The notes under the pieces are model-generated. The model made no database searches. It was given only the letters and a program-made list of their open reading frames with translations, and was not told where the DNA came from. Made by a program: the position numbers and the translations under genes. 64,000 nucleotides of DNA from Aphelenchoides besseyi (lineage: Eukaryota; Nematoda; Chromadorea; Rhabditida; Aphelenchoididae), in NCBI GenBank assembly GCA_024699855.1, contig JAMPIQ010000007.1, positions 1-64,000 of the forward strand, in the 5' to 3' direction. Of this stretch, positions 20,334 to 62,715 are shown one piece after another (within the stretch, counting starts at the first letter, position 1; each line of letters begins with the position of its first letter).

Positions 20334-20414
20334 TGATCTGAACCCTTCAAACTGGACCGTTTTTGGTTAGAGTTTTCCGGTGCATTTTCCTGGCTGGGAA
20401 AGGAACGGAAGACG

Positions 20415-20681
20415 ATGAAAGCATCACAGTTTTCGGACGCACAGAAGGCGTTCATTCTGAAGCAGGGTGATGAAGGAGTGTCGGTTGCGGAGATCTGCCG
20501 GAAGGCGGGGATCAGCCAGGCGACCTATTTCAACTGGAAGAAAAAATACGCGGGCATGCTGCCGCCGGAGATGAAGAAGCTGAAGCAGCTCGAGGACGAG
20601 AATGCGCGGTTGAAGAAGATCGTCGCGGACCTGACGCTGGACCGTGAGATGTTGCAGGATGTCATTCGGCGAAAGCTCTAA
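20415..20681 (+). CDS. IS3-family transposase OrfA, copy 1
   Basis: 88 residues, helix-turn-helix of the IS3 OrfA type ([21 protein letters not shown] then [11 protein letters not shown]) followed by a leucine-zipper-like coiled region ([18 protein letters not shown]). It binds the element ends and is normally fused to OrfB by programmed frameshifting (family knowledge). Identical in protein sequence to the copy at 62305-62571. Confidence 0.93.
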   Translation: MKASQFSDAQKAFILKQGDEGVSVAEICRKAGISQATYFNWKKKYAGMLPPEMKKLKQLEDENARLKKIVADLTLDREMLQDVIRRKL

Positions 20682-20701
20682 GGCCTGCTCGGAAACGCGA
20701 G

Positions 20702-21521
20702 ATGGTGAAAGGCATGTGCCGGGATTGGATGATCTCGATCCGGCGTGCCTGTGGGGCACTGAACTTCGATCGATCGGTCGACCTACCATTACACCTCTCG
20801 CCGTGCCGATCAGGCCGGTCTGGAACGTCGTATTCGTGAGATCTGCGAGATACGTGTTCGCTACGGCTATCGTCGCGTGCATGTATTGTTGGAGCGCGAG
20901 GGTTGGGGGACCAACATCAAGCGAACCTATCGCATTTACAGAGACTTGGGCCTGCAACTGCGTAACAAGACGCCGAAGCGACGGGTCAAAGCCAAGCTGC
21001 GGGAAGATCGGCAAATGGCCGTTGGACCGAACGATGTCTGGGCGATGGACTTCGTTCACGACCAACTCGCGACCGGCAAGAAACTGCGGGTGCTCACGGT
21101 GGTCGACACCTTCTCGCGCTATGTGCCGGTGCTTGATCCACGTCACAGCTATCGAGGTGAAGATGTCGTGCAAACCTTGGAACGGGTATGCCGGAAAGTT
21201 GGCTACCCGAAGACGATCCGTGTCGATCAGGGGACTGAGTTCGTGTCTCGCGATCTTGACCTTTGGGCCTACGCCAAAGGCGTCACCTTGGACTTCTCAC
21301 GCCCGGGCAAGCCGACCGACAATGCGTTCATTGAAGCGTTCAATGGCCGCTTCCGCGCCGAATGTCTGAATCAGCACTGGTTCCTGACCCTTGCGGATGC
21401 CCGCGAAAAGATGGAGGATTGGCGTATAGACTATAATGAGTTTCGGCCGCATGGTGCGATCGGCAATAAGGTACCGATCTCGCTGATGAAATCAGGAGGC
21501 TCAACCAGCCCGCCTCCCTGA
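20702..21521 (+). pseudogene. IS3-family transposase OrfB, copy 1, broken by a 4-bp duplication
   Basis: Integrase-fold (rve) transposase. From the ATG at 20702 the frame is lost near 20768-20775, where ATCG is repeated compared with copy 2. The remaining open frame from ~20780 still carries the DDE core: [15 protein letters not shown] and [18 protein letters not shown] complete, unbroken OrfB of 271 residues is present in copy 2, so copy 1 is probably immobile alone but could be mobilised in trans. Confidence 0.85.
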
Positions 21522-21624
21522 ATGAAGCCGGAAAACTCTAGCCTCAGATGGTCCAGAAACCTGGGGCGGTTCAAAAAAAGCCGAGGCTCTAATCGCAGCC
21601 GGATGAAACTTCAGTGGCAGGTCA

Positions 21625-21769
21625 ATTCCGCACCAAATTTCAGGGCAAAGTCCTCCATGCTCACATAGCCCTCGGACGAGGTGCCCTCAAGATGGCCAAG
21701 ACTGATCCACTCAGAGCCACCACGGTCGCGACGCGAGTTTTTTTAAAGGAGGCTGGCGAGGCGCAGCGT
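21625..21769 (-). pseudogene. unrecognised gene fragment between IS copy 1 and the LacI gene
   Basis: On the minus strand a short open stretch reads RDRGGSEWISLGHLEG and SMEDFALKFGAE before running into the IS end, as if the 3' part of the gene had been lost to the insertion. On the plus strand another open stretch is present (HAHIALGRGALKMAKTDP). I recognise neither. It shows that copy 1 sits in, or at the edge of, a disrupted gene. Confidence 0.3.
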
Positions 21770-22766
21770 TTATGTTGAACTTCTAACGACCAGCCTTCCC
21801 CGGAGAGTTACGGTCTTCAAATCCGAGCTCCCTCTGATCATGCTGAGAATGGCATCAATCATTTCGTCGCGCGGTTGCTCATAGGTGGTGATGCCGTATC
21901 CGAACGAGCCGGATAGCTCGTAATTGTCGAAGCCCACTATCGCGATATCGCCTGGTACCTCAAGGTGAAAGTTTCCCCTGATCTCATCCAAAGCGCCCAT
22001 CGCCAGAATGTCATTTTCGCACATCAGGACATCCACGCGATCTTGCGGCGACGTTTCGCTTAAGTACTTCCTCGCCGAGGTAGCGCCGGCGTCCAGGCTA
22101 TATTTTTCGGCACTCATGTGGACGATGTTTTGCACGCCTCTTTCCTTCCAAAACTCCGTGAAGTAGTGGGCCTCTCTTTAAAGCGGTGGACAAAGCGGCA
22201 GCACCGCTCATGAAGCCCGGGCGTTTGTATCCCTGTTCGTGAAGGTGAGCGACAATCTCCCTGAGAGCGTGTTCCGCGTCGCAAACAACTGCTGGAACGC
22301 CGTCGATCTGACTGTCGCGTGCAAGCACGAACATGGGAGGCATGCCGTGGCCGTGCCGCAGATCCGCCAGTGTCTCGTCTCTGAATGCGGTTCCAAATAG
22401 AATTATGGCGTCGACCTGGCGCTGGTCAGCGTGGAGGAGGGCGTTAACATGGTCAAAATGATTATTGATGTTGATCAGCATCACCACCAGACCCGCGGCT
22501 TGCAGCTTCTCGGTCAGAGCTTCAAGAAATGGAAGTTTTTGGGGATTTGAGAAGTCGTCTACAAAAACGGCAACCTGTCCCGTTGAGCTTGTGGCAAGGC
22601 TTCGTGCAAGCAGGTTTGGCGTGTAGTTCAAAGCTGCAGCAGTCTCAAGAACCTTCCGCTTGCTCTCCTCGGTGATTGAAGCGCCGGGCGTGAAAGCTCT
22701 GATGACGGTCCACTTGGAGACGCCAGCAGCCTCCGCTACCTGTTTTGCCGTTGATCTCTTGCGCAT
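21770..22766 (-). CDS. LacI-family transcriptional regulator of the sugar importer, one apparent frameshift
   Basis: N-terminal LacI HTH (STAKQVAEAAGVSKWTVIRAF) with the hinge NYTPNLLARSLAT, then a periplasmic-binding-like effector domain (GQVAVFVDDFSNP, DAIILFGTAF). A frame change near 22175 leads to the C-terminal part (LMCENDILAMGALDEIRG, IAIVGFDNYE). Start at 22766 from a GTAGGAG site; the in-frame start at 22793 adds residues before the HTH and is less likely. Span ~331 residues. Divergent from the importer it should control, with two operator-like sites between them. Confidence 0.88.
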
Positions 22767-22859
22767 GACTTCTCCTACAAATGGAATATTCATTCCAATC
22801 TGCGATTACAATGAAATGAACGCTTGCTTTTATCGCATTCTGACATAACATGCACCTGC

Positions 22860-22875
22860 TTGCACCCGGTAGCAA
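22860..22875. promoter_or_regulatory. LacI-type operator 1
   Basis: TTGCACCCGGTAGCAA: a 16-bp imperfect palindrome of the form TTGC-N2-CCGG-N2-GCAA with the central CG typical of LacI-family sites. It lies between the divergent lacI-type gene and the importer operon. Confidence 0.7.
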
Positions 22876-22882
22876 AACTAAT

Positions 22883-22898
22883 TTGCACCCGGTAGCAT
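22883..22898. promoter_or_regulatory. LacI-type operator 2
   Basis: TTGCACCCGGTAGCAT repeats 15 of 16 bases of operator 1, 23 bp further on, about two helical turns. The direct repetition of a palindromic site suggests cooperative binding by two dimers. Confidence 0.7.
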
Positions 22899-22943
22899 TC
22901 GAATTTGTCATCCAGAGGAGTGGGTGACATTGAGGAGGAAAAA

Positions 22944-23897
22944 ATGAAATCCATTTGGAAGAATGTCGCTTCTGCGGCGCTTGCTGTGTCACTGGCTGCA
23001 GCGGGCTCGGTGGGCGTCAAAGCCGACGAACAGCCCAGCATCATTGCTGTCACTCATGGGCAAGCGTCTGACCCCTTCTGGTCGATCGTGAAAAACGGCA
23101 TGATGCAGGCCGGCAAGGACATCAATGCCAAGGTTGACTATCGTGCACCGGAAACCTTTGACATGGTCGCAATGGCGCAGCTCATTGAAGCCGCAGTCAA
23201 TCAGAACCCGGCGGGTATTGTAATTTCCAATCCCGATCCGGATGCGCTGGGCCCGGCGATTGCCAAGGCCGTCGCGGCCGGTATCCCCGTTATCTCCATG
23301 AACTCCGGCATTGCCGCAACGGAAAAGCTGGGCATCAGGCTCCATGTTGGCCAAGACGAACTTACCGCAGGCGTGAAGGTCGGCGAAAAACTCAAGTCGC
23401 TCGGCAAGACGCACGTGCTTTGCGTAAACCAGGAGGTCGGAAATGCCGCCCTTGACCAGCGCTGCGCGGGTACCGAGAAGGGTTTCGAAGGTGGAAAGGT
23501 GACGATCCTGCCGACGACCGCCGACCCTGCGGAAATTGAATCGAAGATTCAGGCTGCTTTAACCTCAGATCCTTCCGTCGATGTCGTACTTGGCCTGTCG
23601 GCACCCCTCGTTGGTGAGCGGGCGGTTGCTGTTGTCGAGAAGATGGGCAATGGCGACAAGGTCAAGGTCGCTTCTTTCGATCTTTCGGCGAATTTCCTGA
23701 AGGCTGTTTCGGAAGGCAAGGCATTGTTTGCCGTGGACCAGCAACCCTACCTTCAGGGGTATCTTCCGGTCACATTCCTCGCGCTGAATGCCAAGTATGG
23801 CACTATTCCTGCTGGAAACGTCGCCTCGGGTCCGAGCTTCGTCGAGAAGGATGCGGCAGCCTCGGTGATTGAGAAATCCTCCCAGGGAATCCGCTGA
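22944..23897 (+). CDS. sugar ABC transporter substrate-binding protein
   Basis: 317 residues, intact, with a GAGGAGG ribosome site before the ATG at 22944. Signal peptide of ~27 residues (SAALAVSLAAAGSVGVKA). The mature part is a type I periplasmic binding protein of the ribose/inositol kind (Peripla_BP_4): DPFWSIVKNGMMQAGKD, GIVISNPDPDALGPAI, GIPVISMNSG, VGQDELTAGVKVGEKL and the C-terminal ALFAVDQQPYLQGYLPV. It brings the substrate to the permease/ATPase encoded next. The substrate is probably a sugar or cyclitol judged from the enzymes downstream. Confidence 0.92.
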   Translation: MKSIWKNVASAALAVSLAAAGSVGVKADEQPSIIAVTHGQASDPFWSIVKNGMMQAGKDINAKVDYRAPETFDMVAMAQLIEAAVNQNPAGIVISNPDPDALGPAIAKAVAAGIPVISMNSGIAATEKLGIRLHVGQDELTAGVKVGEKLKSLGKTHVLCVNQEVGNAALDQRCAGTEKGFEGGKVTILPTTADPAEIESKIQAALTSDPSVDVVLGLSAPLVGERAVAVVEKMGNGDKVKVASFDLSANFLKAVSEGKALFAVDQQPYLQGYLPVTFLALNAKYGTIPAGNVASGPSFVEKDAAASVIEKSSQGIR

Positions 23898-24024
23898 GCG
23901 GTACCCATCCAGCAGCTTCCGCACCTCCAGCGGGGGCTGCCCTCATCGCCAGACATCCGATCCGCAGGGCGCGTGAACGGCAGCCGATGGCGCACGTAAA
24001 ACAACTTACATCTGAGGTACGACC

Positions 24025-25148
24025 ATGACGCTGGCAAACGAACAGAACGGGTCTCCGACTCGATCCGACGAGCGCCTGAAAAAGGTTTCGACTTTGACCG
24101 CGCTCGCGCGACGTCCGGAACTCGGCGCCGTCGCAGGATTGGTGCTCGTTACGATATTCTTCATGCTCACCCGCAAACCCATCCATGTTCACACTTGCCG
24201 GTATTGTAAACTTCATGGCGCCAGCAGCCCAGCTCGGAATTCTTGCGGTTGGCGCGGCACTTCTAATGATTGGCGGCGAGTTCGATCTGTCCATCGGCTC
24301 GATGGTCGCATTCGCGGGGCTGGTTTTCGGCACGGCCCTTGTCGTCCTTAATCTCCCGCTCAGTGTCGCGATCCTGATCGCGCTTGCTTTCGCCGTGGTC
24401 ATCGGTGTCACCAATGCCCAGCTCACCATGCGCACCGGGCTTCCATCGTTCATAGTGACGCTTGCGTTTTCTCTTCATTCTTCGCGGCTTAACGCTCGTC
24501 GGCCTGAAGTGGGCGAGCGGCGGTTCAACCCAGCTTCGCGGGATGAGAGAGGCTGTTGCGGACAGTCCCCTTGCGCCGCTCTTTTCAGGCGACGCCTTCC
24601 CGGGTCTCTTCACATGGCTTGGCAATGCAGGCATTATCGAGACCTTCCCGAACGGAACGCCGAAAGTCCCGGGTATCCCCGTAGAAATCCTCTGGTTTGT
24701 GCTCATTGCACTCGTCGCCACATGGGTTCTGCTTCGCACACGATTTGGAAACTGGATCTTTGCATCGGGCGGTGACCCGAAGGCTGCCCGCAAGTCGGGT
24801 GTTCCTGTCGCCCGTGTAAAGACTACTCTATTTATCGTCACCGCGATGTGCGCCACTCTTGTCGCCATTCTAACGGTCCTCGACGCCGGTTCGACTGATG
24901 CCCGACGCGGTTTTCAGAAAGAATTCGAAGCCATCATTGCGGCCGTTATCGGCGGGTGTCTTCTGACTGGCGGATATGGTTCGGCGATCGGTGCGTTCTT
25001 CGGTTCTATCGTCTTTGGCATGGTTTTGATCGGCCTCACCTACACGTCGATCGACCAGGATTGGTACCTCGTCTTCCTCGGCGGGATGCTGCTGACTGCA
25101 GTTATTTTCAACAACATCATTCGTAAACGTGTGACGGGAGAACGCTGA
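24025..25148 (+). CDS. sugar ABC transporter permease (RbsC family), two apparent frameshifts
   Basis: Inner-membrane permease of the ribose/inositol class (BPD_transp_2). A charged N-terminus leads into helices, then [18 protein letters not shown], the diagnostic EFDLSIGS motif of RbsC-type permeases, and later [12 protein letters not shown] with VARVKTTLF (the EAA-like loop) and [20 protein letters not shown]. Frame changes lie near 24175 and 24465 (a run in the TTTTC region). Span ~374 residues. The stop overlaps the ATPase start (ATGA-type overlap at 25148). Confidence 0.88.
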
Positions 25149-25937
25149 TGAGCACGACCCAGACACCACTGGTCGAGGTCAAGAACCTCGTCAAGCACTT
25201 CGGCTCGATTATCGCACTCAACGGCGTTTCGCTGAGTGTCCACGCAGGAGAGGTTCTGTGCCTTCTCGGAGATAACGGAGCCGGCAAATCGACTCTGATC
25301 AATACTCTGTCCGGCGTTCACAGACCGACATCCGGCGATTTCCTGGTCGAGGGGAAACAACATCTCTTTTCCGGGCCAAGAGATGCGCTCGATGCCGGGA
25401 TTGCTACCGTCTACCAGGATCTGGCGATGATCCCGCTGATGTCTGTCACAAGAAACTTCTTCATGGGTCGCGAGCCGTTGAAGGGCTTCGGTCCTTTCAA
25501 ACACATGGACATGGAATTCGCGGATCGCGTGACCAGCGAAGAATGAAGAGAGAATCGGCATCGATGTTCGTGAACCCGGGCAGGCCGTCGGCACGCTCTC
25601 CGGTGGCGAACGTCAATGCGTGGCGATCGCACGCGCCGTGTATTTCGGGGCGAAAGTCCTCATTCTCGATGAACCGACATCTGCACTCGGTGTTGCGCAA
25701 ACCTCGATGGTCCTGAAGTACATCGATCAGGTTCGTCGCAAAGGTCTGGGCGTGATTTTCATTACCCACAACGTCCGACACGCTTTTGCCGTCGGCAACC
25801 GTTTTACAGCTCTGAACAGGGGAAAGACGCTTGGCACATTTGCCAAACATGAAATCAGCCTCGATGGCCTGCAGAACCTGATGGCCGGCGGCAAGGAACT
25901 CCAGTCGATCTCCGTGGAGCTGGGCGGCACCATTTGA
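25148..25937 (+). CDS. sugar ABC transporter ATP-binding protein, single cassette, one apparent frameshift
   Basis: ATPase for the importer. Walker [11 protein letters not shown]-loop VYQDLAMIP, and after a frame change near 25545 the signature LSGGERQ, Walker [13 protein letters not shown] and H-loop FITHN. At ~263 residues it is a single-domain cassette, unlike the double RbsA. Single-cassette relatives occur with inositol/fructose-type importers (FrcA-like). Confidence 0.88.
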
Positions 25938-25960
25938 AGACACTTGGAAACATGAATTTT

Positions 25961-25982
25961 GGCCCGGCGCATTCGCCGGGCC
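25961..25982 (+). terminator. hairpin after the importer ATPase gene
   Basis: GGCCCGGCG and CGCCGGGCC form a perfect 9-bp stem with a CATT loop in the 84-base gap before the isomerase gene. It has no T-tract, so it probably lowers rather than stops transcription into the enzyme genes. Confidence 0.55.
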
Positions 25983-26021
25983 TTGGGACAGTCATATCCA
26001 AAATCCAGGGAACCACCCCAA

Positions 26022-26821
26022 ATGAGCAGTACGAATAACACCCCGTTTCCGTTAGCCGCCTGCGCGGAGATGCTTTGTGGCGGGACAAGCCTATCGAATG
26101 GCGCGCTTCCCGATTGAAGGAGCAGGGATTTGGCGTGGGCCTCTGGAATTGGCCAGAGCACGACATCGCCAAGCTCGAAGCCACAGGTGCGACCTTCACA
26201 ATTATGAACGGTTACCTGACCGGGCGCCTTACGGATGAAGAAGGTGCAGCTGAACTTTTGAGAACCGCGCGCGAAACAGCTCAGATCGGTAAACGTCTTG
26301 GCGTGCAGCGCCTCAACCTTCACGGCACTGGCCTCGGGGATCGTGGACTACCGATTCAGCCTGTCGAGGTCGTCACGGGAGCCATGTGGCTGAAGGCTCA
26401 GGATACGCTACGCCGAATCGTCGACCTCGCGGAAGAAGAAAACGTGGTTTTCACGCTGGAAAAAACCTCAACCTTCCCCTCGATCACCCCGGCGTTCCGT
26501 TCGGGCGCGCCGAAGACACGTTGGCACTCGTATCGAGCATCGACCACCCGCGCCTGCGTTTGAACCTGGACCTCTACCATGCGCAGATCGGTGAGGGGAA
26601 CCTGATCGAACTTTTGCCGCAGGAGCCTGCCGTGGATCGGTGAGATTCAGGTGGCCGATGTACCCGGGCGATTTGAGCCGGGCACCGGCGAAGTGAACTG
26701 GAAGGGGATCGCAAGAGCCCTGCGCGATATGGGCTACTGCGGCCCGATCGGGATGGAAGCATGGGCATCCGGAGATGCCGACGCGGCGCTCGCTGCCTTC
26801 CGTGAAGCCTTCACTCTCTGA
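26022..26821 (+). CDS. TIM-barrel sugar isomerase/epimerase (hydroxypyruvate-isomerase-like), apparent frameshifts
   Basis: AP-endonuclease-2/xylose-isomerase-like TIM barrel of ~266 residues. The N-terminal LAACAEML is followed, after a break near 26075, by KEQGFGVGLWNWPEHD and LNLHGTG, then (breaks near 26470 and 26625) HPRLRLNLDLYHAQIGEGNL, which carries metal-binding-type Asp and His, and GEIQVADVPGRFEPGTGEVNW near the end. This resembles hydroxypyruvate isomerase and inosose isomerase-type enzymes. With the Gfo/Idh enzyme it may form an oxidation-isomerisation route for the imported sugar; the actual reaction cannot be read from the sequence. Confidence 0.78.
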
Positions 26822-26844
26822 TTTCAGAAACAGGACTAAAAATC

Positions 26845-27863
26845 ATGACCAAAGTAAAAAAAGTCAACGTCGGACTTATCGGGGCAGGGCGCATCGGTTC
26901 GTTCCATGGGGAGAGTGTAACAAGAAGGCTCGTAGACGCAGAGCTTGTGGCCGTCGCTGATCCTGCTCCCGGGGCCGCCGCAAAACTTGCAGAGGCGCTG
27001 GGCGCCGCCGCTTCTCATACCGACGTCGCAGAAATGCTTTCTCACCCCGGTCTGGATGCGGTCATCATTGCCACACCCGCACGTTTTCACACCAATATCC
27101 TGGTGCAGGCCGCAGAAGCCGGTAAAGCGATCTTCTGCGAAAAACCGATGGCGCTCACGCTTGAAGATGCGGACCGCGGCATTGCAGCCGCCAAGGCCGC
27201 TGGCGTCCCCCTGCAGGTCGGTTTTAATCGCCGCTGGGACCAGGCATTTTTTGAAAGCCGCGCAGCGATCGATGCTGGAAAAGTCGGCGCGGTTCAACTC
27301 ATCCGGTCATTGACACGCGATCCCGGTCCGTTCGGCGGTGATCCAGAGAGGATTCCTTTGTGGACCATCTTCTACGAAACGTTGATACACGACTTCGACA
27401 CCTTACTTTGGTTAAACCCCGGCGCAAAGCCTGTCGAAGTGTTTGCCATGGCAGATGCATTAGTTCGCTCGGATGCACGCGACAAAGGCTTCCTGGACAC
27501 GGCGGTCGTCAATATCCGCTTTGACAATGGATCTATCGCGGTTGCGGAAGCAAACTTCTCTGCAATGTACGGCTACGATATTCGCGGCGAAGTGTTCGGC
27601 TCCGGCGGAATGGTCACGATGGGGGACGTACGACGTTCGAGCATGACGCTGTTCGACAAGACTGGCGTATCCAACGACACATGGCGGGAGCGATACGGAC
27701 CACTTCGTCCAGGCCTACACGGCGCAACTTGCTTCTTTTGTCGAGGCGGCTCGTAACGGTGCCGTTCAGAATGAACCAACGGGGAGCTGATGCTCGCAAC
27801 GCTCTGGCGATTGCACTTGCTGCGATTGAATCCGTGTCGAAAAAAACAGGCCGGTTCCTGTGA
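26845..27863 (+). CDS. Gfo/Idh/MocA-family NAD(P)-dependent dehydrogenase (inositol 2-dehydrogenase-like), apparent frameshifts
   Basis: Rossmann fold with GLIGAGRIGSFHGES (dinucleotide-binding GxGxxG), the EKPMALTLEDAD motif with its catalytic Lys, GFNRRWD, and an ETLIHDFDTLLWL block carrying the conserved Asp-His-type residues. This is close to the IolG/MocA pattern. Frame changes near 27690 and 27780 precede a C-terminal ARNALAIALAAIESV ending. Span ~340 residues. It follows the isomerase by 23 bases and ends just before a strong terminator, closing the operon. Confidence 0.85.
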
Positions 27864-27875
27864 GTTGAAGGCACA

Positions 27876-27906
27876 GCTGACAGGGGCCGACAGTGCCCCT
27901 GTCAGC
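27876..27906 (+). terminator. stem-loop terminator of the sugar operon
   Basis: GCTGACAGGGGC and GCCCCTGTCAGC form a perfect 12-bp stem with a 7-base loop, 12 bases after the dehydrogenase stop. The following bases (ATATAGTTGTTGG) are AT-rich but lack a long T run. It is a good end for the operon that starts at 22944. Confidence 0.75.
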
Positions 27907-27969
27907 ATATAGTTGTTGGAAAAAAATCAGCCACTCAGAGCCTCATCGGCGGGGCGAAAGACAATCGTC

Positions 27970-28254
27970 ATGGCAACTAAATCAACAGTTCAGAAGCCCA
28001 AAACAGTATTTGATTTGAGAAACATGCTTGCGGTCAAAAGTTTGAGGCTATCCAGTCATCAAGAGCGAGTAGCGCGAACTGCTGTCGCCTGCCCGGAAAG
28101 GGTCGCCTTCGGTACAGCAAATTCCCTTGCTGTTTGTTGTTCCGTCACCCAGTCGACGGTGGTTCGGTTGGCGATCTCTCTTGGGTTCGAGAGTTATCGC
28201 GAATTCAGACGCGTTTTCCGGCAGCATTTTAAATTAAACGCAACCTACAGATAG
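27970..28254 (+). pseudogene. RpiR-family regulator, N-terminal domain only
   Basis: 94 residues. HTH_6 pattern of RpiR proteins: RLSSHQERVARTAVACPERVAF, ANSLAVCCSVTQSTVVRLA and SLGFESYREFRR. The normal protein is ~280 residues with a C-terminal SIS sugar-phosphate-binding domain. Here it stops after the HTH, and I see no SIS domain downstream. It could be a remnant or a short DNA-binding protein; remnant is more likely beside the next fragment. RpiR regulators often control inositol genes, which fits the neighbours. Confidence 0.65.
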
Positions 28255-28389
28255 GGTATCAATTCCTGATTCTCGCCGTACACCTACCGCGAGGGAAAGC
28301 TGCTATTGCCAAGTTTGTTAGCTCGTGTCTCGCCGCTCGGATAGGAGCACACATTCTCGCCAATCAACATCGTTGGCCAAAGTATTGAC

Positions 28390-28767
28390 CTCTTCGCGGC
28401 ATTTTTAACATTGACGGCAGCCAATGCGCGAATTGCTGCATATCAACATGGAACCGAACCTCCTTGCACTGAAGCGTATCACCTTCAGTGAAGCGCGGTC
28501 GTGTTCGAAAATAAAAGACCGATCCCGCCGCAGCCCGATCCGATCATGAACCGGCTCGTCGATGCTGTACAGACGGCGCAAGATGCGGGCATGGTTGCGA
28601 CCGGGGATGTGAGCCTGATCGCCAGCCATCTCATCCACTGTCTCGTCGCAATGCCCACCTCATACGCGATGATGGGCAGCGCCGAATTTGATACAAGACA
28701 GTCTGTCGATCTCCATTTCGACAGGACCTGGAAGTGGCTCTATAGAGGAATATCGGCAGACAGCTAA
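28390..28767 (+). pseudogene. TetR-family regulator, C-terminal remnant
   Basis: No HTH is present. A segment INMEPNLLALKRITFSEA is followed, after a frame change near 28500, by DAVQTAQDAGMVATGD, HLIHCLVAMPTSYAMMG and RTWKWLYRGI, which resembles the ligand-binding C-terminal domain of TetR regulators. The N-terminal half is missing and the preceding bases are the truncated RpiR region, so a deletion junction probably lies around 28255-28390. Confidence 0.55.
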
Positions 28768-29159
28768 CGGCAGGGCGACCATTTTTGGGGAGGGTTCTGT
28801 AGATCGAGCGCGCTGTCGCAAATCTTCCTAAGCCTAGTACGCGCCTCGTCTGGCGCTCCGTGCCTCTTTGTGATGCCACGATCCAGCTGCGAATGACTTG
28901 GATGTTCCGAGCTGGCTCTTTCAGAACTGTCGATAAATGAACGCTATCTCAGTTTGGATATTGGAACGGGTCATTTGGTCCCAGACCCCAATCAGTCGTG
29001 CGGTGAAGCCAAGATCTTGGTTAGCACATACGAATCTCGTACTGAGGGACATTCGTAATACGGGGGTCGCTGGTTCGTGTCCGTTCAAGGCGACTAGAAC
29101 AGTCTAGCCGCCGTATCTTTGGGTTTGCGTTTCGGCCTGGAAACTAACAGTTTTCTCGT
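28768..29159. other. non-coding gap before the nic cluster, with a tRNA-like fragment and a palindrome
   Basis: No gene. The bases 29050-29083 resemble the 3' half of a tRNA-Thr(CGT): an anticodon loop TTCGTAA, a GGGTC variable segment and a GGTTCGTGTCC T-arm, but the arms do not pair well. GGCGACTAG (29089-29097) and CTAGCCGCC (29104-29112) form an imperfect 9-bp hairpin. Both could be scars of an integration junction between the sugar operon and the nic cluster. Confidence 0.35.
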
Positions 29160-51936: not shown

Positions 51937-51941
51937 CTCCC

Positions 51942-54921: not shown

Positions 54922-54940
54922 TGACCGCTAACTGATTTGC

Positions 54941-54968
54941 GCTACTCGCGCTCGAGAACGCGGGTAGC
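54941..54968 (+). promoter_or_regulatory. intercistronic hairpin after the substrate-binding gene
   Basis: GCTACTCGCG and CGCGGGTAGC form a 10-bp stem (one G-U pair) with an 8-base loop between the binding-protein gene and the permease. Such stems often protect the highly expressed binding-protein message. Confidence 0.55.
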
Positions 54969-55001
54969 TGTCGCCAGGAACACTCATCCGGATAGCGGGT
55001 A

Positions 55002-55844
55002 ATGCAGAAAAACAATCTTTCCGCAGCGGGAATGCTTATGCCCGCGACGACCATAGTATTGGTCTTCATGGCACTGCCACTGTTGTACCTTTTACGATAC
55101 AGCCTGAACAGCTATGTGCCAGGTCAGTTCATGGTAAGCGATTTCACGCTTGCAAACTTCTCGGCGTTCTTCTCGGATAGTTATTATCTAAACGGAATGC
55201 GGACAACGATCCTGATGTCCTTTGGTGTGACGGTCGTATGCCTGGTTGTTGGCTTGCCGTTGGCGAACTGGATATCGCGCAAACATGGAGGCATGAAAAC
55301 CTTCCTGCTCATGCTCATTATCCTGCCGCTGTTCATTTCAAACGCAGTCAGAGCAGCAGGCTGGATGGTTGCTTTCGGAAAGAGCGGGGTTTTGAACTAT
55401 GGGCTGCTTTCGCTGGGACTGATCTCAACGCCGCTTGAAATAATGTATACGCCCTTCGCGGTCTTTGTGGGCATCGTCGCAGTCAATCTTCCTTATGTGG
55501 TGTTGACGCTACAGAGCGTACTGGAGGGGCTGGACGAGAATGTGGAGTTCGCGGCCTCAAGCCTGGGGGCTACGCCGTTGCAAAGCTTTCTGCTTGTGAA
55601 GCTCCCGCAAATCATACCGGGGCTTCTCGCTGCCTTCGTCCTGTCTTTCATTCTGACAATGAATGCCTATGCAACGCCAGTCCTGCTCGGTGGTCCGTCA
55701 TTTCGCATGATGTCACCAATGATCGTGGGTGAAATTCTCAACAAGGCGAACTGGCCATTCGGCGCTGCACTGTCATTTATCCTCCTCTCCGTCACGATCG
55801 CGATTACCGTCGTGGCCGGATATTACGTCAAACGGAAATACTGA
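55002..55844 (+). CDS. ABC transporter permease, PotB-like
   Basis: 280 residues, intact. Helices begin with AAGMLMPATTIVLVFMALPLLYLLRY. The EAA loop is VEFAASSLGATPLQSFLLVKLPQI; NAYATPVLLGGPSFRMMSPMI is a conserved PotB-type block. It completes the importer started at 51942 with the order permease, ATPase, binding protein, permease. Confidence 0.9.
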   Translation: MQKNNLSAAGMLMPATTIVLVFMALPLLYLLRYSLNSYVPGQFMVSDFTLANFSAFFSDSYYLNGMRTTILMSFGVTVVCLVVGLPLANWISRKHGGMKTFLLMLIILPLFISNAVRAAGWMVAFGKSGVLNYGLLSLGLISTPLEIMYTPFAVFVGIVAVNLPYVVLTLQSVLEGLDENVEFAASSLGATPLQSFLLVKLPQIIPGLLAAFVLSFILTMNAYATPVLLGGPSFRMMSPMIVGEILNKANWPFGAALSFILLSVTIAITVVAGYYVKRKY

Positions 55845-55882
55845 ACTTCCCGTCGTGCGCAGTTGTTTTCATTGAGGTTGGT

Positions 55883-56638
55883 ATGCTCGAAATTAGCGGA
55901 GTGACACGACATTTTGGCGGGGTGCATGCCCTTTCAGGAGTCGATTTAGAAATCGCCGAAGGCGGGATCGTTGGAATGATCGGACCCAATGGGGCTGGAA
56001 AGACGACGCTCTTCAACTGTATCTCAGGTGTTTTGCCCGTCTCAAGCGGAGAGATCAGATTTAAGGGCGAGCGTATCGAGAGGATGCGGCCCGACCAGAT
56101 TTCAAGCCTTGGGCTCGTGCGTACGTTTCAGATTGCACGCGGGTTTCCGCGTTTGACCGTGCTGGAAAGCTTGTTGCTTTACGGGACCGACCAGCCGGGC
56201 GAGGGCCTGTTACAGGCGCTAACGCGCAGCAGTGCCAGCATTCGCCGCGAAGAGGAATTGCTCGCCAAGGCATTGGAAATCGCTGAGCGATTAAAGCTCT
56301 CGCACGTTCTCGACAACAAAGCATCCGATCTCTCTGGCGGTCAGAAAAAGCTGCTCGAAATCGGTCGCGCCATGATGCGTGATCCTAGCATGCTTCTTCT
56401 TGATGAACCGATGGCTGGGGTCAATCCCTCGCTTGTCAGAGAGATCGGCGAACGTCTCGTGGCGATTGCCAGGGAGGGTGTGACGATCGTGTTGATCGAG
56501 CATCAGATGGACCTGATTTCCAGGCTTTGCGACCACGTGATCGTCATGGCGGATGGCAGGAAGATGATTGAAGGGACATTCGAGTTCGTGGCTGCAAACA
56601 AGGACGTCCAGAGTGCTTATATGGGAAGCCGCCGATGA
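55883..56638 (+). CDS. livG: branched-chain-type ABC transporter ATPase LivG-like
   Basis: 251 residues, intact. Walker A GPNGAGKTT, Q-loop TFQIARGFPRLTVLE, signature LSGGQKKLLEIGRA, Walker B LLLDEPMAGV and H-loop LIEHQMDLI are exactly the LivG pattern. Overlaps livF by 4 bases. First gene of a complete Liv (HAAT) importer, though the true substrate is unknown. Confidence 0.92.
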   Translation: MLEISGVTRHFGGVHALSGVDLEIAEGGIVGMIGPNGAGKTTLFNCISGVLPVSSGEIRFKGERIERMRPDQISSLGLVRTFQIARGFPRLTVLESLLLYGTDQPGEGLLQALTRSSASIRREEELLAKALEIAERLKLSHVLDNKASDLSGGQKKLLEIGRAMMRDPSMLLLDEPMAGVNPSLVREIGERLVAIAREGVTIVLIEHQMDLISRLCDHVIVMADGRKMIEGTFEFVAANKDVQSAYMGSRR

Positions 56639-57344
56639 GTGATCTGACGGTCGAAAACATAGTCGCTGGCTACTCCGCAGGTGATCAAATCCTCAAGGGC
56701 GTCAATTTTCATGTTTCGCCAAGAGAGATCGTCTGCATCGTTGGTCCGAACGGAGCAGGCAAGTCCACTCTTCTGAAAACGATCGCTGGCCTACTGCGTC
56801 CCTCGCAGGGGCGTATCGTCTACGACAAAAACACCCATAAGCGGTTTGAAACCCCACGACGTATCCCGTCATGGCATAGCCTTCGTCCCGCAGGAACATA
56901 ATGTCTTCGGCAACATGACCGTTTACGAGAACCTGGAGATGGGTGGCTACATTGCCTCAAAACATTTTCGGGCTCGTGCTGACGATGTCATGAGCCATTT
57001 TCCAGTTCTTGCCAAGAAGAAGGGTCAATTGGCACGCACCCTGTCTGGAGGGCAGCGTCAGTTGCTTGCCGTAGGCATGGCGCTCATGGTGGATCCGGGC
57101 CTGATCCTGCTTGATGAGCCGACCGCCGGTCTGTCTCCGGCCGCTGCAGACGAACTCTTCCGCGAAATTCGCAAACTCCGAGATTCCGGCAAGGCTATCG
57201 CTTTGGTCGAGCAAAAATGCGCGTGAAGCCATGGAGATTTCCGACCGCACCTACATCCTTGTCGACGGAAGGAACAGCATCGAGGGGCCATCCGAAGACC
57301 TGCTCGCGAACGAGGACATCAACAGGATGTTCCTCGGAGGTTGA
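56635..57344 (+). CDS. livF: branched-chain-type ABC transporter ATPase LivF-like, apparent frameshifts
   Basis: Walker A GPNGAGKST, then (break near 56830) FVPQEHNVFGNMTVYENLEMGG, signature LSGGQRQLLAVGMA, Walker B LILLDEPTAGLSP and, after a second break near 57222, a tail SDRTYILVDGRN with LANEDINRMFLGG. The YILVDGRNSIEG ending is typical of LivF. Span ~236 residues. Second ATPase of the Liv-type importer. Confidence 0.88.
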
Positions 57345-57382
57345 TAGATACTACTGCCATTCAAACAAAAAAGGGGAATGCC

Positions 57383-58571
57383 ATGAACAGACGAGAATTC
57401 CTTTCCGCCTCCGCCATCGTTGCCAGCAGCGTATTTGCTCCGGCAATCATCCGCGCTGAAACGCCAATAAAACTTGGCGTGCTGACGCCTCTCACGGGGG
57501 CAGGTGCCCAAGATGGTCCACGCATGCTCAAGGCGATGCAGGCTGTGGTTGACGAGGTCAATGGAGCCGGTGGCGTGTTGAACCGAACGATCGAACTGAT
57601 CGTTGAAGACGACCAGACCAATCCCGAGGCCGCCGTTCGCGCCGCACAGAAGCTCGTCGGTGTGGACCGCGTTCCAGTTGTCATGGGAACCTGGGCATCT
57701 GCCGTAACCTCAGCTGTCGCACCGGTCTGCTGGGAGAGCAAGACATGCCTGATGACCGTATCGGGTGCGGATTCGATCACGCAGCTGCCGCATCAGGGCT
57801 ATATTTTCCGAACACAACCCAAACACGGCCCTTCAGGCAACCAAGCATGCCGAATATCTTGTGTCTACCGGTGCGAAGAAGGTGTTCTACGTGGCGGTGC
57901 AGACGCCGTTCGCCGCGACAATGAAGGACCAGATCGCTTCCGTTCTGGCGTCTAACGGAGCCGAGCTTGTTGGCGGGCTGATTTACGAGCCATCGAAGTC
58001 GAGCTACCGCTCGGAAATCGATAGCGCTATCGCCGCCAAACCCGATTTTATCTACCTCAACAGTTACGGACCAGACCTGACTGTGCTCCTGAAAGACCTT
58101 TATCGTGCCGGCTATGAGGGAGGACGCATCACCCAGTCATACGCCTATACCACAAAGGTGGCAGAAGGTATTCCATCCGAAGTAACCGATGGTCTTGTGA
58201 CGGCTCAGCCGTCGAGTGACGTCGACAGCGAAGCTTACGCGCTGGCGCAGAAACGCCTGAACAATCAATCCGCAGATTCCTATGAAGCCCAGGCAACAGA
58301 TTGGATCTCGCTTGCCCTGCTTGCGATCCAAAAGGCTCGCAAAGCGGAGGGGACGGACATTCGCGACGCCGTCCGTCTGATCTCTCAGGGCAATGGAGAA
58401 AAAACGTATTCGGCTGTTGAGGGACTGAAGCTTCTCCGCGACGGGAAGGATGTCAATTACGATGGTGCGAGTGGCACCTGCGACTTCAATGAAAAAGGCG
58501 ATATCGTCGATTGCCGGTTCCGTTACAGCGAAGCCAAGAATGGCGCGATCCAGTTGATCAAGATCGTCTGA
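57383..58571 (+). CDS. branched-chain-type substrate-binding protein (LivJ-like), one apparent frameshift
   Basis: Periplasmic binding protein of ~396 residues, start at 57383 behind AAAAGGGGAATGCC. Signal peptide with two arginines (NRREFLSASAIVASSVFAPAI). Mature part: KLGVLTPLTGAGAQDG (LivJ start), GGVLNRTIELIVEDDQTNP, RVPVVMGTWASAVTSAVAP and, after a break near 57815, HAEYLVSTGAKKVFYVAVQTPF and DFIYLNSYGPDLTVLLKDL. Relatives bind amides, aromatic acids or amino acids, so the substrate cannot be set. Confidence 0.88.
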
Positions 58572-58584
58572 TCGGGGACCCGGA

Positions 58585-59445
58585 ATGAATGTTCTCCAGT
58601 TAATCGCAAACGGAATCATGGCGGGAAGTGTTCTCGCCATACCGGCCATCGGTCTGACGGCCATGTATTCCGTGCTCAGGTTTCCCAATTTCGCAATTGC
58701 GTCCCACGCCACAGTGGGTGCTTTTGCCGGCTGGGTTGCGAATGTTGAATTTGGTCTGTCGGTGGTCCCTGCGCTTGTTGTCGCGCTGCTGGTCAGCGGA
58801 ATGGTCGGCCTGTTGACCGATGAATACATTCTGAAGCCGTTTCGCACTGCAGGCGTGATTACCACGGCCATTGGCTCACTAGCTCTGACGATCGGGCTGG
58901 AGAACGTCGTTCGCCTTTTTTATGGCAGCGATCTTCGTGGATACGATCTTCCTCTGGCCCGCGACATCACCCTTCTCGGCATTCATCTTGGGCCCCAGCA
59001 GCTCAAGAACCTGATGGTATCTGTGGTCACGATGGCAATTGTCTTCGGGTTCCTGTCCTTTACCCGCATGGGCAAGGCAATGAGGGCTGTTGCCGATAAT
59101 CCGAAACTCGCCGACATCAAAGGGATCGATTCCCGCATCGTGGCCCGCATCGCATCATTCATGGGAATGGGTCTTGCGGGGCTGGGTGGCATGCTGCTTG
59201 GTCTTGATGCCTCCATCGACCCGATGACAGGCTCGCGTGCAATGCTGCCCATTTTTGCGGCGGCTGTCGTCGGGGGGTTAGGGAGCATTCCAGGCGCCGT
59301 GGCAGGTGCCTTGTTTGTCGGGATTGCAGAGGAACTCTCATTGCTGGTCCTGCCGGCCAGCTACAAGTCGGCAATCGCTTTCGTCGCGATTATCTTGATC
59401 CTGACGCTACGCCCGCAAGGGCTTCTCGGTCGCGAGGCTCGTTAG
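58585..59445 (+). CDS. livH: branched-chain-type ABC permease LivH-like
   Basis: 286 residues, intact. NVLQLIANGIMAGSVLAIPAIGLT is the LivH start, RFPNFAIASHATVGAFAG and KAMRAVADNPKLADIKGID (EAA-type loop) follow, ending TLRPQGLLGREA, which is typical. Three bases before livM. Confidence 0.93.
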   Translation: MNVLQLIANGIMAGSVLAIPAIGLTAMYSVLRFPNFAIASHATVGAFAGWVANVEFGLSVVPALVVALLVSGMVGLLTDEYILKPFRTAGVITTAIGSLALTIGLENVVRLFYGSDLRGYDLPLARDITLLGIHLGPQQLKNLMVSVVTMAIVFGFLSFTRMGKAMRAVADNPKLADIKGIDSRIVARIASFMGMGLAGLGGMLLGLDASIDPMTGSRAMLPIFAAAVVGGLGSIPGAVAGALFVGIAEELSLLVLPASYKSAIAFVAIILILTLRPQGLLGREAR

Positions 59446-59447
59446 TC

Positions 59448-60506
59448 ATGGAAGTCTACATCATCAGCATTTCGGTCGTGGCGGGTATCTATGCCGTTAT
59501 GGCCCTCGGTCTCAACGTCATGTGGGGCATGGCGGGCCTCGTCAATCTCGGCCTCGTCGGTTCAGCCGCGGTCGGTGCCTATACCAGTGCCATCCTGACC
59601 AAGACGCTTGGACTGCCCATATGGGCAGGCATCATCTTCGGCACGATCGCTGCCGCAATAGTCGGCGCGGGACTTGCCATGGTGACCCGACGCCTGAAGG
59701 ATCACTATCTTGCCATCGTGACCCTCGGTTTTGCGGAAACGATCCGCATTGTCGCGTCCAACGAAATATGGCTGACCAACGGCACAGACGGAATTTCGGG
59801 CATCCCAGGTCCTTTTCGGGCAGATCTCAGCCTGCTTCAATTCAATCTGGTCTATCTTGGCATAGTAGTACTGGTTTTGGCGGCGCTTTATTTTTGCTGC
59901 CAGCGCATCCTCTACTCCCCGTTCGGAAGAGTGCTGCGCGCGGTGCGTGACGATGATGTAGTCGTCAGCGTGGCTGGTAAGAATATGCAGGCCTTCAAGG
60001 TGCAGGCTTTTGCTCTGGGCAGCGGCATCATCGGTCTGGCGGGTGGCCTTTATGCCCACTACACCTCGTTCATCTCGCCGGAGTTGTTTGTTCCACTGCT
60101 CACGCTGTACATCAAGCTTTCTCTTCTCGTCGGCGGCGTCGGTAACAATCGAGGTGCGGTCCTAGGAGCCGCCATCATCATTGTCATTCTTGAGGGTTCG
60201 CGCTTCGTGATTCCCTTCATTCCCTATATCACGCCGCCCCAGGGCGCAGCGATGCGAGAACTCTTTCTCAGTGCGACACTTCTGATTGTCTTAAGGTTCA
60301 GGGTAACCGGCCTTATTCCAGAAGCGCGAGATCATCCCGTCGTGTCCCGCTTCCGTGCTGGGTGTGTTAAATCCCCAGAACCCTACACCCTGAAAGGAAT
60401 AGATCGCCATGAAAACCAAGACCCCGGTCCTGGAGGATGTTGCACGCCTGGTCGCTGCTACCACGGCCCGCAGCGATTTTACCGAAAATGCCAAGGTTCT
60501 CGATGA
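59448..60506 (+). CDS. livM: branched-chain-type ABC permease LivM-like
   Basis: Permease whose core ends with the LivM-typical RFRVTGLIPE near residue 290. YIISISVVAGIYAVMALGLN starts it, and RRLKDHYLAIVTLGFAETIRI and GRVLRAVRDDDVV (EAA-type loop) are present. The reading frame then runs on ~60 codons and overlaps the next gene by 98 bases, with a basic low-complexity tail that looks unlike a LivM end. A break near 60320 in the C-terminal coding region would give a normal-length protein, so the true stop may be a little earlier. Confidence 0.88.
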   Translation: MEVYIISISVVAGIYAVMALGLNVMWGMAGLVNLGLVGSAAVGAYTSAILTKTLGLPIWAGIIFGTIAAAIVGAGLAMVTRRLKDHYLAIVTLGFAETIRIVASNEIWLTNGTDGISGIPGPFRADLSLLQFNLVYLGIVVLVLAALYFCCQRILYSPFGRVLRAVRDDDVVVSVAGKNMQAFKVQAFALGSGIIGLAGGLYAHYTSFISPELFVPLLTLYIKLSLLVGGVGNNRGAVLGAAIIIVILEGSRFVIPFIPYITPPQGAAMRELFLSATLLIVLRFRVTGLIPEARDHPVVSRFRAGCVKSPEPYTLKGIDRHENQDPGPGGCCTPGRCYHGPQRFYRKCQGSR

Positions 60507-60911
60507 CATTATCCAGGACCGTTTCGGCCACAAGCTTTTCACCGTCCTGAGGATTGTGGACGGTGGAAGCGCTGTAGAACGTCTCTATTCAAGTGATAAT
60601 CTGACCTATCCTCCAGGGGGGAGAAAGAAGAGGGAAGATACTGTCTGGGGTCGTGTTGTCTACGGAGACGGTAACGTTCTGATCTCAAAGGATGCAGAAG
60701 ATATCCGGCTAAATTTCCCCCCGACCATGAGGTAATCTTCGGTTTGGGTATCGGTAGCATGATCAACATTCCTGTCGTTTGGCAGGGTAAGGTAATCGGA
60801 TCGGCCAATGTCTCACATCAGGACGAGGGGTTCTATGATGAGCGAGACGGAAACTATCTGAAGACGCTGGTTGGAATTTTGGCTCCTGCCGTTGCTGAGA
60901 CATTCGTCTGA
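60409..60911 (+). CDS. GAF-domain protein, one apparent frameshift
   Basis: ~167 residues. The start MKTKTPVLEDVARLVAATTA is followed by GHKLFTVLRIVDG and, after a frame change near 60718 (CCCCCC run), GLGIGSMINIPVVWQGKVIGSANVSHQDEGFYDERD, the GAF ligand-domain core. Small GAF proteins with this layout occur next to amidohydrolase and Liv-type importer genes in proteobacteria; they may bind the substrate or an intermediate. No output domain, so it is not a conventional regulator. Confidence 0.72.
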
Positions 60912-61074
60912 CGCGCTTCATATCGTAGCGTGATACTGGTTCACGCTCTCGCGCAGTGCATGCCACCTGGCGCGTGGGACCGACGAATTTCCTATCCAAA
61001 GTCTTCACAGCTGTTGTCGGGAGTAAGCCCCGGCAACGCCGATCCTTACATGCCACCGGAGAAACTGGACCGAA

Positions 61075-61366
61075 ATGGCCACACTATTCAAAAAACGTTC
61101 GCATATTTGATGGTTTCCAGAGGACTTTGATCGACGGCCTCTCCGTTCTGGAGGTCGATGGGACTATTCGCGAAGTCTCTTCGTCACCAAGTATGCCCGA
61201 CGGAACGATAGTTATTGATTGTCAGGGAAAGACACTCACGCCTGGTCTCATCGACGCCCACGTTCATGTCATTGCCAACAGCGTTGATCTGAGCGCAGGC
61301 AAATTCTGGCCATCCTTCGTCTTCACGCATGCGCGTTACATCATGGAAGGGATGCTGCAACGCGGT
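61075..61366 (+). pseudogene. second amidohydrolase, N-terminal part cut by IS copy 2
   Basis: The ATG at 61075 gives MATLF; an A6 run at 61089 shifts the frame, after which FDGFQRTLIDGLSVLEVDG, GKTLTPGLIDAHVHVIANSVDL and ARYIMEGMLQRG follow. This matches the first ~97 residues of the amidohydrolase at 50703, including the HVH metal motif. The IS begins immediately after, and the rest of the gene is not found on the other side. It was probably the second enzyme of the same pathway and is now inactive. Confidence 0.8.
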
Positions 61367-61468
61367 TGACCTGCCACTGAAGTTTCATCCGGCTGCGATT
61401 AGAGCCTCGGCTTTTTTGAACCGCCCCAGGTTTCTGGACCATCTGAGGCTAGAGTTTTCCGGCTTCAT

Positions 61469-62284
61469 TCAGGGAGGCGGGCTGGTTGAGCCTCCTGATT
61501 TCATCAGCGAGATCGGTACCTTATTGCCGATCGCACCATGCGGCCGAAACTCATTATAGTCTATACGCCAATCCTCCATCTTTTCGCGGGCATCCGCAAG
61601 GGTCAGGAACCAGTGCTGATTCAGACATTCGGCGCGGAAGCGGCCATTGAACGCTTCAATGAACGCATTGTCGGTCGGCTTGCCCGGGCGTGAGAAGTCC
61701 AAGGTGACGCCTTTGGCGTAGGCCCAAAGGTCAAGATCGCGAGACACGAACTCAGTCCCCTGATCGACACGGATCGTCTTCGGGTAGCCAACTTTCCGGC
61801 ATACCCGTTCCAAGGTTTGCACGACATCTTCACCTCGATAGCTGTGACGTGGATCAAGCACCGGCACATAGCGCGAGAAGGTGTCGACCACCGTGAGCAC
61901 CCGCAGTTTCTTGCCGGTCGCGAGTTGGTCGTGAACGAAGTCCATCGCCCAGACATCGTTCGGTCCAACGGCCATTTGCCGATCTTCCCGCAGCTTGGCT
62001 TTGACCCGTCGCTTCGGCGTCTTGTTACGCAGTTGCAGGCCCAAGTCTCTGTAAATGCGATAGGTTCGCTTGATGTTGGTCCCCCAACCCTCGCGCTCCA
62101 ACAATACATGCACACGACGATAGCCGTAGCGAACACGTATCTCGCAGATCTCACGAATACGACGTTCCAGACCGGCCTGATCGGCACGGCGAGAGGTGTA
62201 ATGGTAGGTCGACCGATCGAAGTTCAGTGCCCCACAGGCACGCCGGATCGAGATCATCCAATCCCGGCACATGCCTTTCACCAT
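61469..62284 (-). CDS. IS3-family transposase OrfB, copy 2, intact
   Basis: 271 residues. HTH_21-type start ([25 protein letters not shown]) then the rve integrase core with D in [10 protein letters not shown] in RVDQGTEF and E in [17 protein letters not shown], followed by [15 protein letters not shown]. Catalyses transposition together with OrfA as a frameshift fusion. Confidence 0.94.
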
Positions 62285-62304
62285 CTCGCGTTTCCGAGCA
62301 GGCC

Positions 62305-62571
62305 TTAGAGCTTTCGCCGAATGACATCCTGCAACATCTCACGGTCCAGCGTCAGGTCCGCGACGATCTTCTTCAACCGCGCATTCTCGTCCTCGAGCTG
62401 CTTCAGCTTCTTCATCTCCGGCGGCAGCATGCCCGCGTATTTTTTCTTCCAGTTGAAATAGGTCGCCTGGCTGATCCCCGCCTTCCGGCAGATCTCCGCA
62501 ACCGACACTCCTTCATCACCCTGCTTCAGAATGAACGCCTTCTGTGCGTCCGAAAACTGTGATGCTTTCAT
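62305..62571 (-). CDS. IS3-family transposase OrfA, copy 2
   Basis: 88 residues, identical to OrfA of copy 1. HTH of IS3 type followed by a leucine-rich coiled region. It lies 20 bases upstream of orfB in the element. Confidence 0.93.
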
Positions 62572-62715
62572 CGTCTTCCGTTCCTTTCCCAGCCAGGAAA
62601 ATGCACCGGAAAACTCTAACCAAAAACGGTCCAGTTTGAAGGGTTCAGATCACTTAAAAGGCTGGCAGCCACGCGGTGCCAGAAAGGGATTGCGCGACTA
62701 AAATGAAAGCCTTAT

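Follow-up and report, generated by a model that had tools for sequence, protein, structure and literature searches.

Plasmid-type DNA between two vgrG genes at a chromosomal type VI secretion locus of an Agrobacterium: probable integration at vgrG, with a catabolic mosaic bounded by insertion sequences

Results

Plasmid-type DNA lies between two vgrG copies

The window, i.e. the whole stretch of DNA that was analysed, comprises positions 1–64,000 of contig C7 (104,914 bases, of which 102,652 were read) in the Aphelenchoides besseyi assembly. It contains a bacterial type VI secretion system (T6SS) locus and, downstream of it, 39.7 kb of catabolic genes between two inverted copies of an IS3-family insertion sequence (IS). 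A preliminary description of the window had reported the IS pair and the catabolic genes and had taken the outer flanks to be unrelated to each other. We found instead that both flanks match one and the same locus of pAt-type plasmids, and that plasmid-type DNA extends beyond the coordinates given there, up to a second vgrG copy. The order on C7 is chromosomal T6SS, vgrG1, plasmid effectors, IS, catabolic segment, IS, plasmid toxin-antitoxin block, vgrG2 and chromosome:

3123–13660 (imp operon on −, hcp operon on +): main T6SS locus, chromosomal in relatives, with Hcp at 13145–13621; homology extends left to at least 1000
14650–16915 (+): vgrG1, identified by tblastn with SJ003 TssI; chromosome-like 5′ end, plasmid-like 3′ end; upstream joint of the inserted stretch
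14648–20333 (+): pAt-type block of vgrG, DUF2169 adaptor, PAAR-like toxin and hypothetical gene; 96.6% identical to pAt SJ003 65924–71579
20250–20333 (+): first 84 bases of the hypothetical gene (SJ003 coding sequence (CDS) 71495–72550), cut by the left IS
20334–21624 (+): left IS3-family copy, ISRel21-like, 1291 bp; left inverted repeat (IRL) outward, right inverted repeat (IRR) toward the segment
61367–62652 (−): right IS3-family copy, 1286 bp; IRR toward the segment, IRL outward
62653–64000, continuing to C7 71298: start of the pAt toxin-antitoxin/LysR block; 97.1–97.3% identical to four pAt/pTi plasmids
from C7 78177, beyond the window: vgrG2, with chromosome-like DNA after it

Four plasmids holding both flanks were examined (SJ003 pAt, pTiCFBP4996, pLN1 and HAMBI 105); three further records with the right flank at 91.7–91.8% identity were left out of the flank-order comparison. 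In the plasmids other than SJ003 the left flank is matched at 95.7–98.6% over 14648–18542 and at 97.0% over 19458–20159. The interval 16920–18542 is 99.5–99.6% identical to pLN1 and HAMBI 105, 93.9% to the chromosome of A. tumefaciens B6 and 85.8% to a further Agrobacterium genome (G036), and 18543–20333 matched only the four plasmids among eight sequences compared. Pfam domains DUF2169 and Tox-PAAR-like were found in 17410–19488. In all four plasmids the toxin-antitoxin block starts 16.4–16.5 kb upstream of vgrG; the two flanks are thus apart and in the opposite order to C7, and the reassembled target that the preliminary description suggested looking for, with the flanks joined in the absence of the segment, was not encountered there. 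The distance from 62653 to vgrG2 at 78177 is 15.5 kb on C7, comparable to the plasmid spacing. Three blocks of C7 lie on pAt SJ003 in the same orientation: 14648–20334 corresponds to 65924–71579, 62653–71298 to 49497–58131 and 77122–80294 to 64877–68041. Their sequence on C7 is the circular order of the plasmid opened at vgrG. The match to SJ003 stops at 20333. It starts again at 62653, some 28 bases into the block that the plasmids share; relative to SJ003, ∼118 kb (71579 through the record origin to 49497, including repB, repC and trb genes) are replaced by IS, catabolic segment and IS.

Chromosomal DNA was recognized on both sides of this stretch. The main T6SS locus is 93% identical to A. 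tumefaciens B6 and 97% to A. leguminum MOPV5; of four further genomes searched, two carry it on contigs of 2.14 Mb (G035) and 2.17 Mb (G036), and two (G024, G029) gave no match. The interval between hcp and vgrG1 is 96.7% identical to B6 and had no plasmid match in that comparison. In B6, C7 3123–18599 is followed after ∼2.5 kb by C7 84310–90865, i.e. the chromosome is continuous there without the inserted stretch, and ST15.13.057 likewise carries C7 84310–86374 and 88067–89451 downstream of its T6SS. Out of 80 loci fetched we compared 18: the continuation at C7 84310 was present in two (B6 and ST15.13.057), two end inside vgrG, and the other 14 had no match >300 bp to C7 84310 onward.

The two vgrG genes are homologous sequence duplicated in direct orientation at the ends of the inserted stretch. 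Between 14790 and 16700 they show 22 listed differences (17 substitutions and 5 gaps), giving a core that is ∼98.8% alike with sharp divergence at both ends. Against the A. leguminum T6SS contig, identity over the first 150 alignment columns is 98.6% for vgrG1 and 80.3% for vgrG2; over the last 54 columns vgrG1 is 100% identical to three plasmids, and vgrG2 97.5% to an A. leguminum contig. In these alignments the ends of the two genes are largely reciprocal, as would result from a single crossover of a plasmid-borne with a chromosomal vgrG. Downstream of the second copy, C7 78824–81799 encodes a DUF4123 adaptor and matches an A. leguminum contig (L121) with 94.7% identity, and a WHH nuclease-type gene follows at C7 81625–82551. 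The effector modules differ, with DUF4123 adaptor and WHH nuclease after vgrG2, within C7 80552–82551, and DUF2169 adaptor and PAAR-like toxin after vgrG1. We also observed that draft contigs of A. salinitolerans (L028) and A. leguminum (L030) both stop inside the hcp-linked vgrG; a vgrG that is repeated almost identically in these genomes as well would lead one to expect this.

In order to look for plasmid replication and transfer functions we searched the part of C7 that was read with SJ003 proteins. Neither RepA, RepB and RepC (tblastn, E up to 1e-3) nor TrbB, TrbC and TrbE gave a match. The RepC query, used as a control, matched 2453 plasmid records, with less than 60% identity in 2000 of these. 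It is unlikely that the 63.5 kb between the vgrG copies are a free repABC plasmid. Because RepA, RepB and RepC gave no match, the integrated DNA would be at most a reduced plasmid or a plasmid part and not a complete plasmid with its replication genes.

Two nearly identical IS3-family copies occupy the internal joints

The IS pair was recovered as first reported: one pair of inverted arms of 809 nt is 100% complementary and another of 452 nt 99%, far beyond chance, and the second (transposase) frame of the right copy matches NCBIfam NF033516 (IS3 family) with 229 bits at a cut-off of 160. The element has ends TGATCTG/AGGTCA, and its TG..CA termini, two-frame layout and DDE transposase agree with the IS3 family. 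It is ∼88.7% identical to records annotated as ISRel21. The differences between the copies are of the kinds already noted: CGAT (4 bp) is duplicated in the left copy, one run of A has seven bases in one copy and six in the other, and there is one C/T change. The A7/A6 difference could be due to an error in the consensus, since frame-breaking indels are frequent in C7 (see below). Copies with 99.4% identity occur on plasmids of Agrobacterium S7/73 and Rhizobium AB2/73. The element is common on Rhizobiaceae plasmids, with 241 plasmid records matching it, and multicopy in the assembly, where it was found twice on C7 and once each on C17 (12063–13349) and C20 (24785–26781).

We could also reproduce the lack of a target duplication at both C7 copies (flanks in element orientation CCAG/ATTC for the left and TAAG/ACCG for the right copy), and the outer flanks of the pair, CCAG and CTTA, do not form a duplication bracketing it. 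This is weak evidence, because among seven distinct outside sites of the same IS type with both IS ends present (one match being a base short) only one showed a 4-bp duplication (CTGA, plasmid pLN1). Re-pairing the flanks by eye, as after an inversion or among the two C7 copies and those of C17 and C20, yielded no 3- or 4-bp match in any combination.

Several observations concern copies elsewhere. The C20 copy is partly tandem-duplicated (positions 1–1242, then ∼586–1244 again) and has a divergent terminus, which may be genuine or an assembly error. DNA ending 1.5 kb before it is 94% identical to B6, and DNA 0.1 kb after it 97% to A. leguminum. At the C17 copy the left side is 88% identical to A. 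leguminum and the right side had no match in five genomes searched. The C17 and C20 copies may also mark borders of accessory DNA. Furthermore, two outside copies (loci L149 and L165) directly abut a second IS-end-like sequence, TGATCTGAACC, on their left flank, which suggests targeting of end-like sequences or tandem insertion.

Homology to other replicons breaks exactly at all four IS ends on C7 (20334, 21610–21625, 61367 and 62653). Since the copies sit on all four joints between plasmid-type blocks of differing kinship, the comparisons support the view that they had a part in the assembly of the segment. By its geometry, the 39.7 kb segment may also be able to flip through homologous recombination between the inverted copies.

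The preliminary description further stated that each copy abuts a cut gene. This holds for the amidohydrolase ending at 61366, where homology to pAt15955 stops ∼80 codons into the corresponding CDS. The fragment at 21625–21769 is matched at 78.7% by a single plasmid record, at a site without an annotated CDS. The cut gene in the left outer flank had been overlooked: its match to SJ003 ends after the 84 bases listed above, and the remainder was not found in the assembly. An assembly search for the missing halves of the cut genes returned only the known pieces.

The catabolic segment is a mosaic of plasmid modules

The 39.7 kb between the IS copies consist of catabolic and transport genes, as previously described, and resolve into the following parts:

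21625–21769: fragment, matched in one plasmid record only (pAtFPH-AT4a)
21764–28387: module 1, with LacI regulator, sugar ABC importer, TIM-barrel protein and Gfo/Idh/MocA dehydrogenase; 90–91% identical to several Agrobacterium pAt plasmids
28424–29093: linker with homology to a TetR-type regulator; 84–86% identical to plasmids of Shinella oryzae, S7/73 and AB2/73
29175–49065: module 2, with nicotinate-type catabolism, MFS, XdhC, phosphorylase, ABC importer and LacI regulator; 91.6–92.7% identical to and colinear with pAtCFBP5877a
49255–61366 (+): module 3, with TetR, amidohydrolase, ABC importers, GAF protein and the cut amidohydrolase (last ∼240 bp); 88% identical to pAt15955

Module 2 carries an extra ∼0.9 kb at 40910–41802, which is missing from the otherwise colinear pAtCFBP5877a and is not repeated within C7. 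Module 3 is matched at a similar level in four further Agrobacterium records. No plasmid record covers at least 80% of either queried part of the segment (none of 142 and none of 16 matching records). Modules 2 and 3 were not joined in any of 39 genomes of the genus, with 7 candidates per genome scored, and 23 of the 39 had some match to window positions 44200–64000; the same unit at another site was found neither there nor among the plasmid records. Judged from these similarities, the segment appears to be composed of three modules from different Agrobacterium plasmids rather than being one known mobile unit. In pAtFPH-AT4a a degenerate sequence resembling the right IS end abuts the same point as the fragment (11 of 15 bases by manual count, the first 9 consecutive), and this point may once have been occupied by such an IS.

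Beside the toxin-antitoxin block lies a transporter/LysR module with a 96% match on a 2.3 Mb contig of Agrobacterium G029 (C2:1231959–1238470). This module seems to move between replicons by itself. A shared insertion in G029 was rejected, as only the transporter/LysR module matches there and the T6SS query had no match.

The contig probably derives from a bacterium close to A. leguminum

The assembly comprises 31 contigs with a total of 47.4 Mb. Small-subunit rRNA genes on its contigs of 18.1, 17.8 and 10.0 Mb (C1, C2 and C3) score 525–531 bits against the bacterial model, and the gene on C17 scores 1472; C7 is bacterial DNA, one of several small bacterial contigs (C7, C17 and C20) within what looks like a eukaryote assembly. 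Since the T6SS locus of C7 is 96.9% identical to A. leguminum MOPV5 across 11.8 kb and 3.1 kb of C20 are 97% identical to the same strain, the source would be A. leguminum or a close relative. The 16S gene on C17 (35985–37502) consists of alternating Agrobacterium-like and E. coli-like blocks: at 371 positions that distinguish Agrobacterium from E. coli genes it switches between both sources in blocks, and overall it is 91.4% identical to A. salinitolerans. It is apparently a consensus merged from at least two bacteria. Frame-breaking indels, often homopolymeric, occur in C7 at 0.8–3.5 per kb relative to named relatives, and at 0.04–0.8 per kb between named plasmids; small repeat differences and broken frames on C7 should therefore not be over-read. 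No tRNA gene was found within the window or in C7 62653–102652, and an island targeted to a tRNA gene was rejected. An Rfam scan of the window gave nothing above the gathering score. GC content is 0.57–0.62 before 20 kb and 0.52–0.59 after it, which is not decisive.

Discussion

We consider it probable, at roughly 57%, that pAt-type plasmid DNA was integrated at the chromosomal T6SS locus by homologous recombination of vgrG with vgrG, with an assembly error as the main alternative. The reasons are the plasmid's circular order, the chromosome on both sides, the largely reciprocal vgrG ends, the plasmid-like sequence of 16920–20333, the lack of Rep and Trb matches in the part of C7 read, the homology breaks that coincide with the IS copies and the published recombination at vgrG in agrobacteria. 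In this proposal, ∼63.5 kb of pAt-type DNA (C7 14.65–78.2 kb) would have entered the chromosomal T6SS region of an A. leguminum-like Agrobacterium. In one step, the vgrG of a pAt-like plasmid, a single circular donor, would have crossed over in the cell with the chromosomal vgrG that terminates the hcp operon. In another, which may have come before or after, IS copies would have joined catabolic modules of other pAt plasmids and removed backbone, with an IS remaining at every joint. Recombination between IS copies and/or IS-adjacent deletion would be the simplest mechanism. The inserted stretch would have kept the plasmid vgrG-effector and toxin-antitoxin blocks and lost most of the known backbone.

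A number of findings weigh against this proposal. Every joint on C7 at which the replicon switches falls in a repeat (the two vgrG and the two IS copies), so that a mis-resolved assembly would look alike, and the 16S mosaic on C17 points in the same direction. A RepC search of the whole assembly was empty, with no positive control in the same search, and no second strain with the C7 arrangement was found. On the left side, the chromosomes of B6 (93%) and G036 (89%) match C7 up to ∼18.6 kb, so that a DUF2169 module downstream of hcp does not alone point to a plasmid; the start of vgrG1 is also 91.9% identical to two plasmids. On the right side, C7 71.3–76.6 kb has no match >200 bp to the four plasmids, 77122–78176 just before vgrG2 reaches only 83.8–84.2% to them, and the start of vgrG2 is only 89.2% identical to the best plasmid. 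Two vgrG loci on one contig of ST15.13.057 (replicon not assigned) match the area before and including vgrG2 at 86–87%; the donor on this side may have been another plasmid or vgrG locus.

The alternative that has to be weighed most carefully, although we regard it as unlikely, is that the plasmid is a separate, pAt-like one whose vgrG is almost the same as that of the chromosome, and that the assembler ran through this repeat from chromosome into the plasmid circle and back to chromosome, the IS-bracketed segment then residing on the free plasmid. The position of the joints in repeats, the merging of two bacteria in the 16S gene of C17, the partly tandem-duplicated IS on C20 and the high frameshift rate of C7 would all be in line with this. 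However, the would-be circle has no repABC match, and vgrG1 and vgrG2 remain distinct, differing by clustered substitutions. Reads, if long enough to span the repeats of 1.3–2 kb, would prevent mis-joining. As both IS copies have IRR inward and IRL outward, a wrong link within the pair would yield only the inverted isomer, but wrong links to the copies on C17 and C20 may have arisen. It is far less probable that accretion proceeded stepwise. The partner in the vgrG recombination would then have been no single circular pAt plasmid but an accessory vgrG locus of some other replicon or chromosome, and plasmid-type blocks would have been added later. The vgrG loci of ST15.13.057, which at 86–87% come a little closer than the four plasmids do just before vgrG2 (84%), and the transporter/LysR module on the large G029 contig would fit such a history, but taken together the blocks follow the plasmids in circular order and orientation, and 62653–71298 and 16920–20333 are plasmid-like at 96–99.6%.

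The remaining alternatives concern the IS pair. Two independent late insertions into an existing contiguous region, unrelated to the origin of the segment, would be in line with an element that is multicopy in this genome and common on Rhizobiaceae plasmids. The same gene would then be expected on both sides of each copy; instead, homology to different replicons stops at each IS end and the assembly search did not recover the missing halves of the cut genes, so we see hardly any room for this explanation. Very improbable, too, is the composite-transposon-like unit of the preliminary description, in which the pair would have mobilised the 39.7 kb together, with pAt-type DNA as the target. In its favour, the inverted copies are nearly identical and homology breaks at both ends of each. 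Yet no flanking duplication was found, the four plasmids examined have the outer flanks at a distance from each other and in the reverse order, no record holds at least 80% of either queried part, and modules 2 and 3 are not joined in the genus genomes scored. On the order of the flanks, the missing duplication and the mosaic content we rejected a simple composite transposon.

If integration at vgrG is true, the IS-bracketed block is no longer to be viewed as a self-contained transposon, and antibacterial weaponry would be linked to the capture of catabolic genes. Tentatively, and at somewhat less than even odds, vgrG genes may serve as ready-made homology sites that give pAt plasmids access to the T6SS locus of the chromosome. 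The hcp operon would then gain the plasmid effector module, the other module would be displaced ∼64 kb downstream but kept, and catabolic cargo would be fixed in the same event.

A composite transposon consists of two nearly identical IS copies bracketing cargo genes. C7 shares the IS-bracketed cargo and differs in that no target duplication and no empty target were seen, the cargo is a mosaic and the backbone is displaced. The auxiliary T6SS cluster element of Vibrio cholerae was reportedly gained in the chromosome by site-specific recombination, whereas homologous recombination at vgrG is proposed here. Remodelling of pAt plasmids by IS elements is known from pAt15955, for which an IS66-mediated deletion of 270 kb has been described (PMC6778807). 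As on C7, IS copies act there as recombination sites that reshape pAt content, and the flanking duplications differ after the event; unlike there, where direct IS66 copies led to deletion, the IS3-family copies on C7 are inverted, so that inversion would be expected, and no event was observed.

With regard to vgrG itself, near-identical paralogs have been described in strain 1D1609 (PMC6971182). In C58, tap1 (DUF4123) belongs to the hcp-linked vgrG1 and tap2 (DUF2169) to the accessory vgrG2, and plasmid-borne vgrG loci have been noted in agrobacteria (PMC8546570). Among the titles and abstract openings listed by searches of open-licence literature we found no report of plasmid integration at vgrG in agrobacteria. 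According to PMC8546570, vgrG is a recombination hot spot in agrobacteria at which the 3′ end of the hcp operon is displaced. C7 resembles the cases described there, in which a crossover in the conserved vgrG core exchanges everything downstream and tap2 and tap1 loci are involved. There, loci are swapped or displaced and the evidence comes from trees and gene networks (PMC8546570). In contrast, C7 keeps both vgrG loci with ∼63.5 kb of plasmid-type DNA between them, and, if the proposed integration took place, a chromosome in which both vgrG hybrids still border the plasmid DNA that came in would show directly one way in which sets of effectors change hands.

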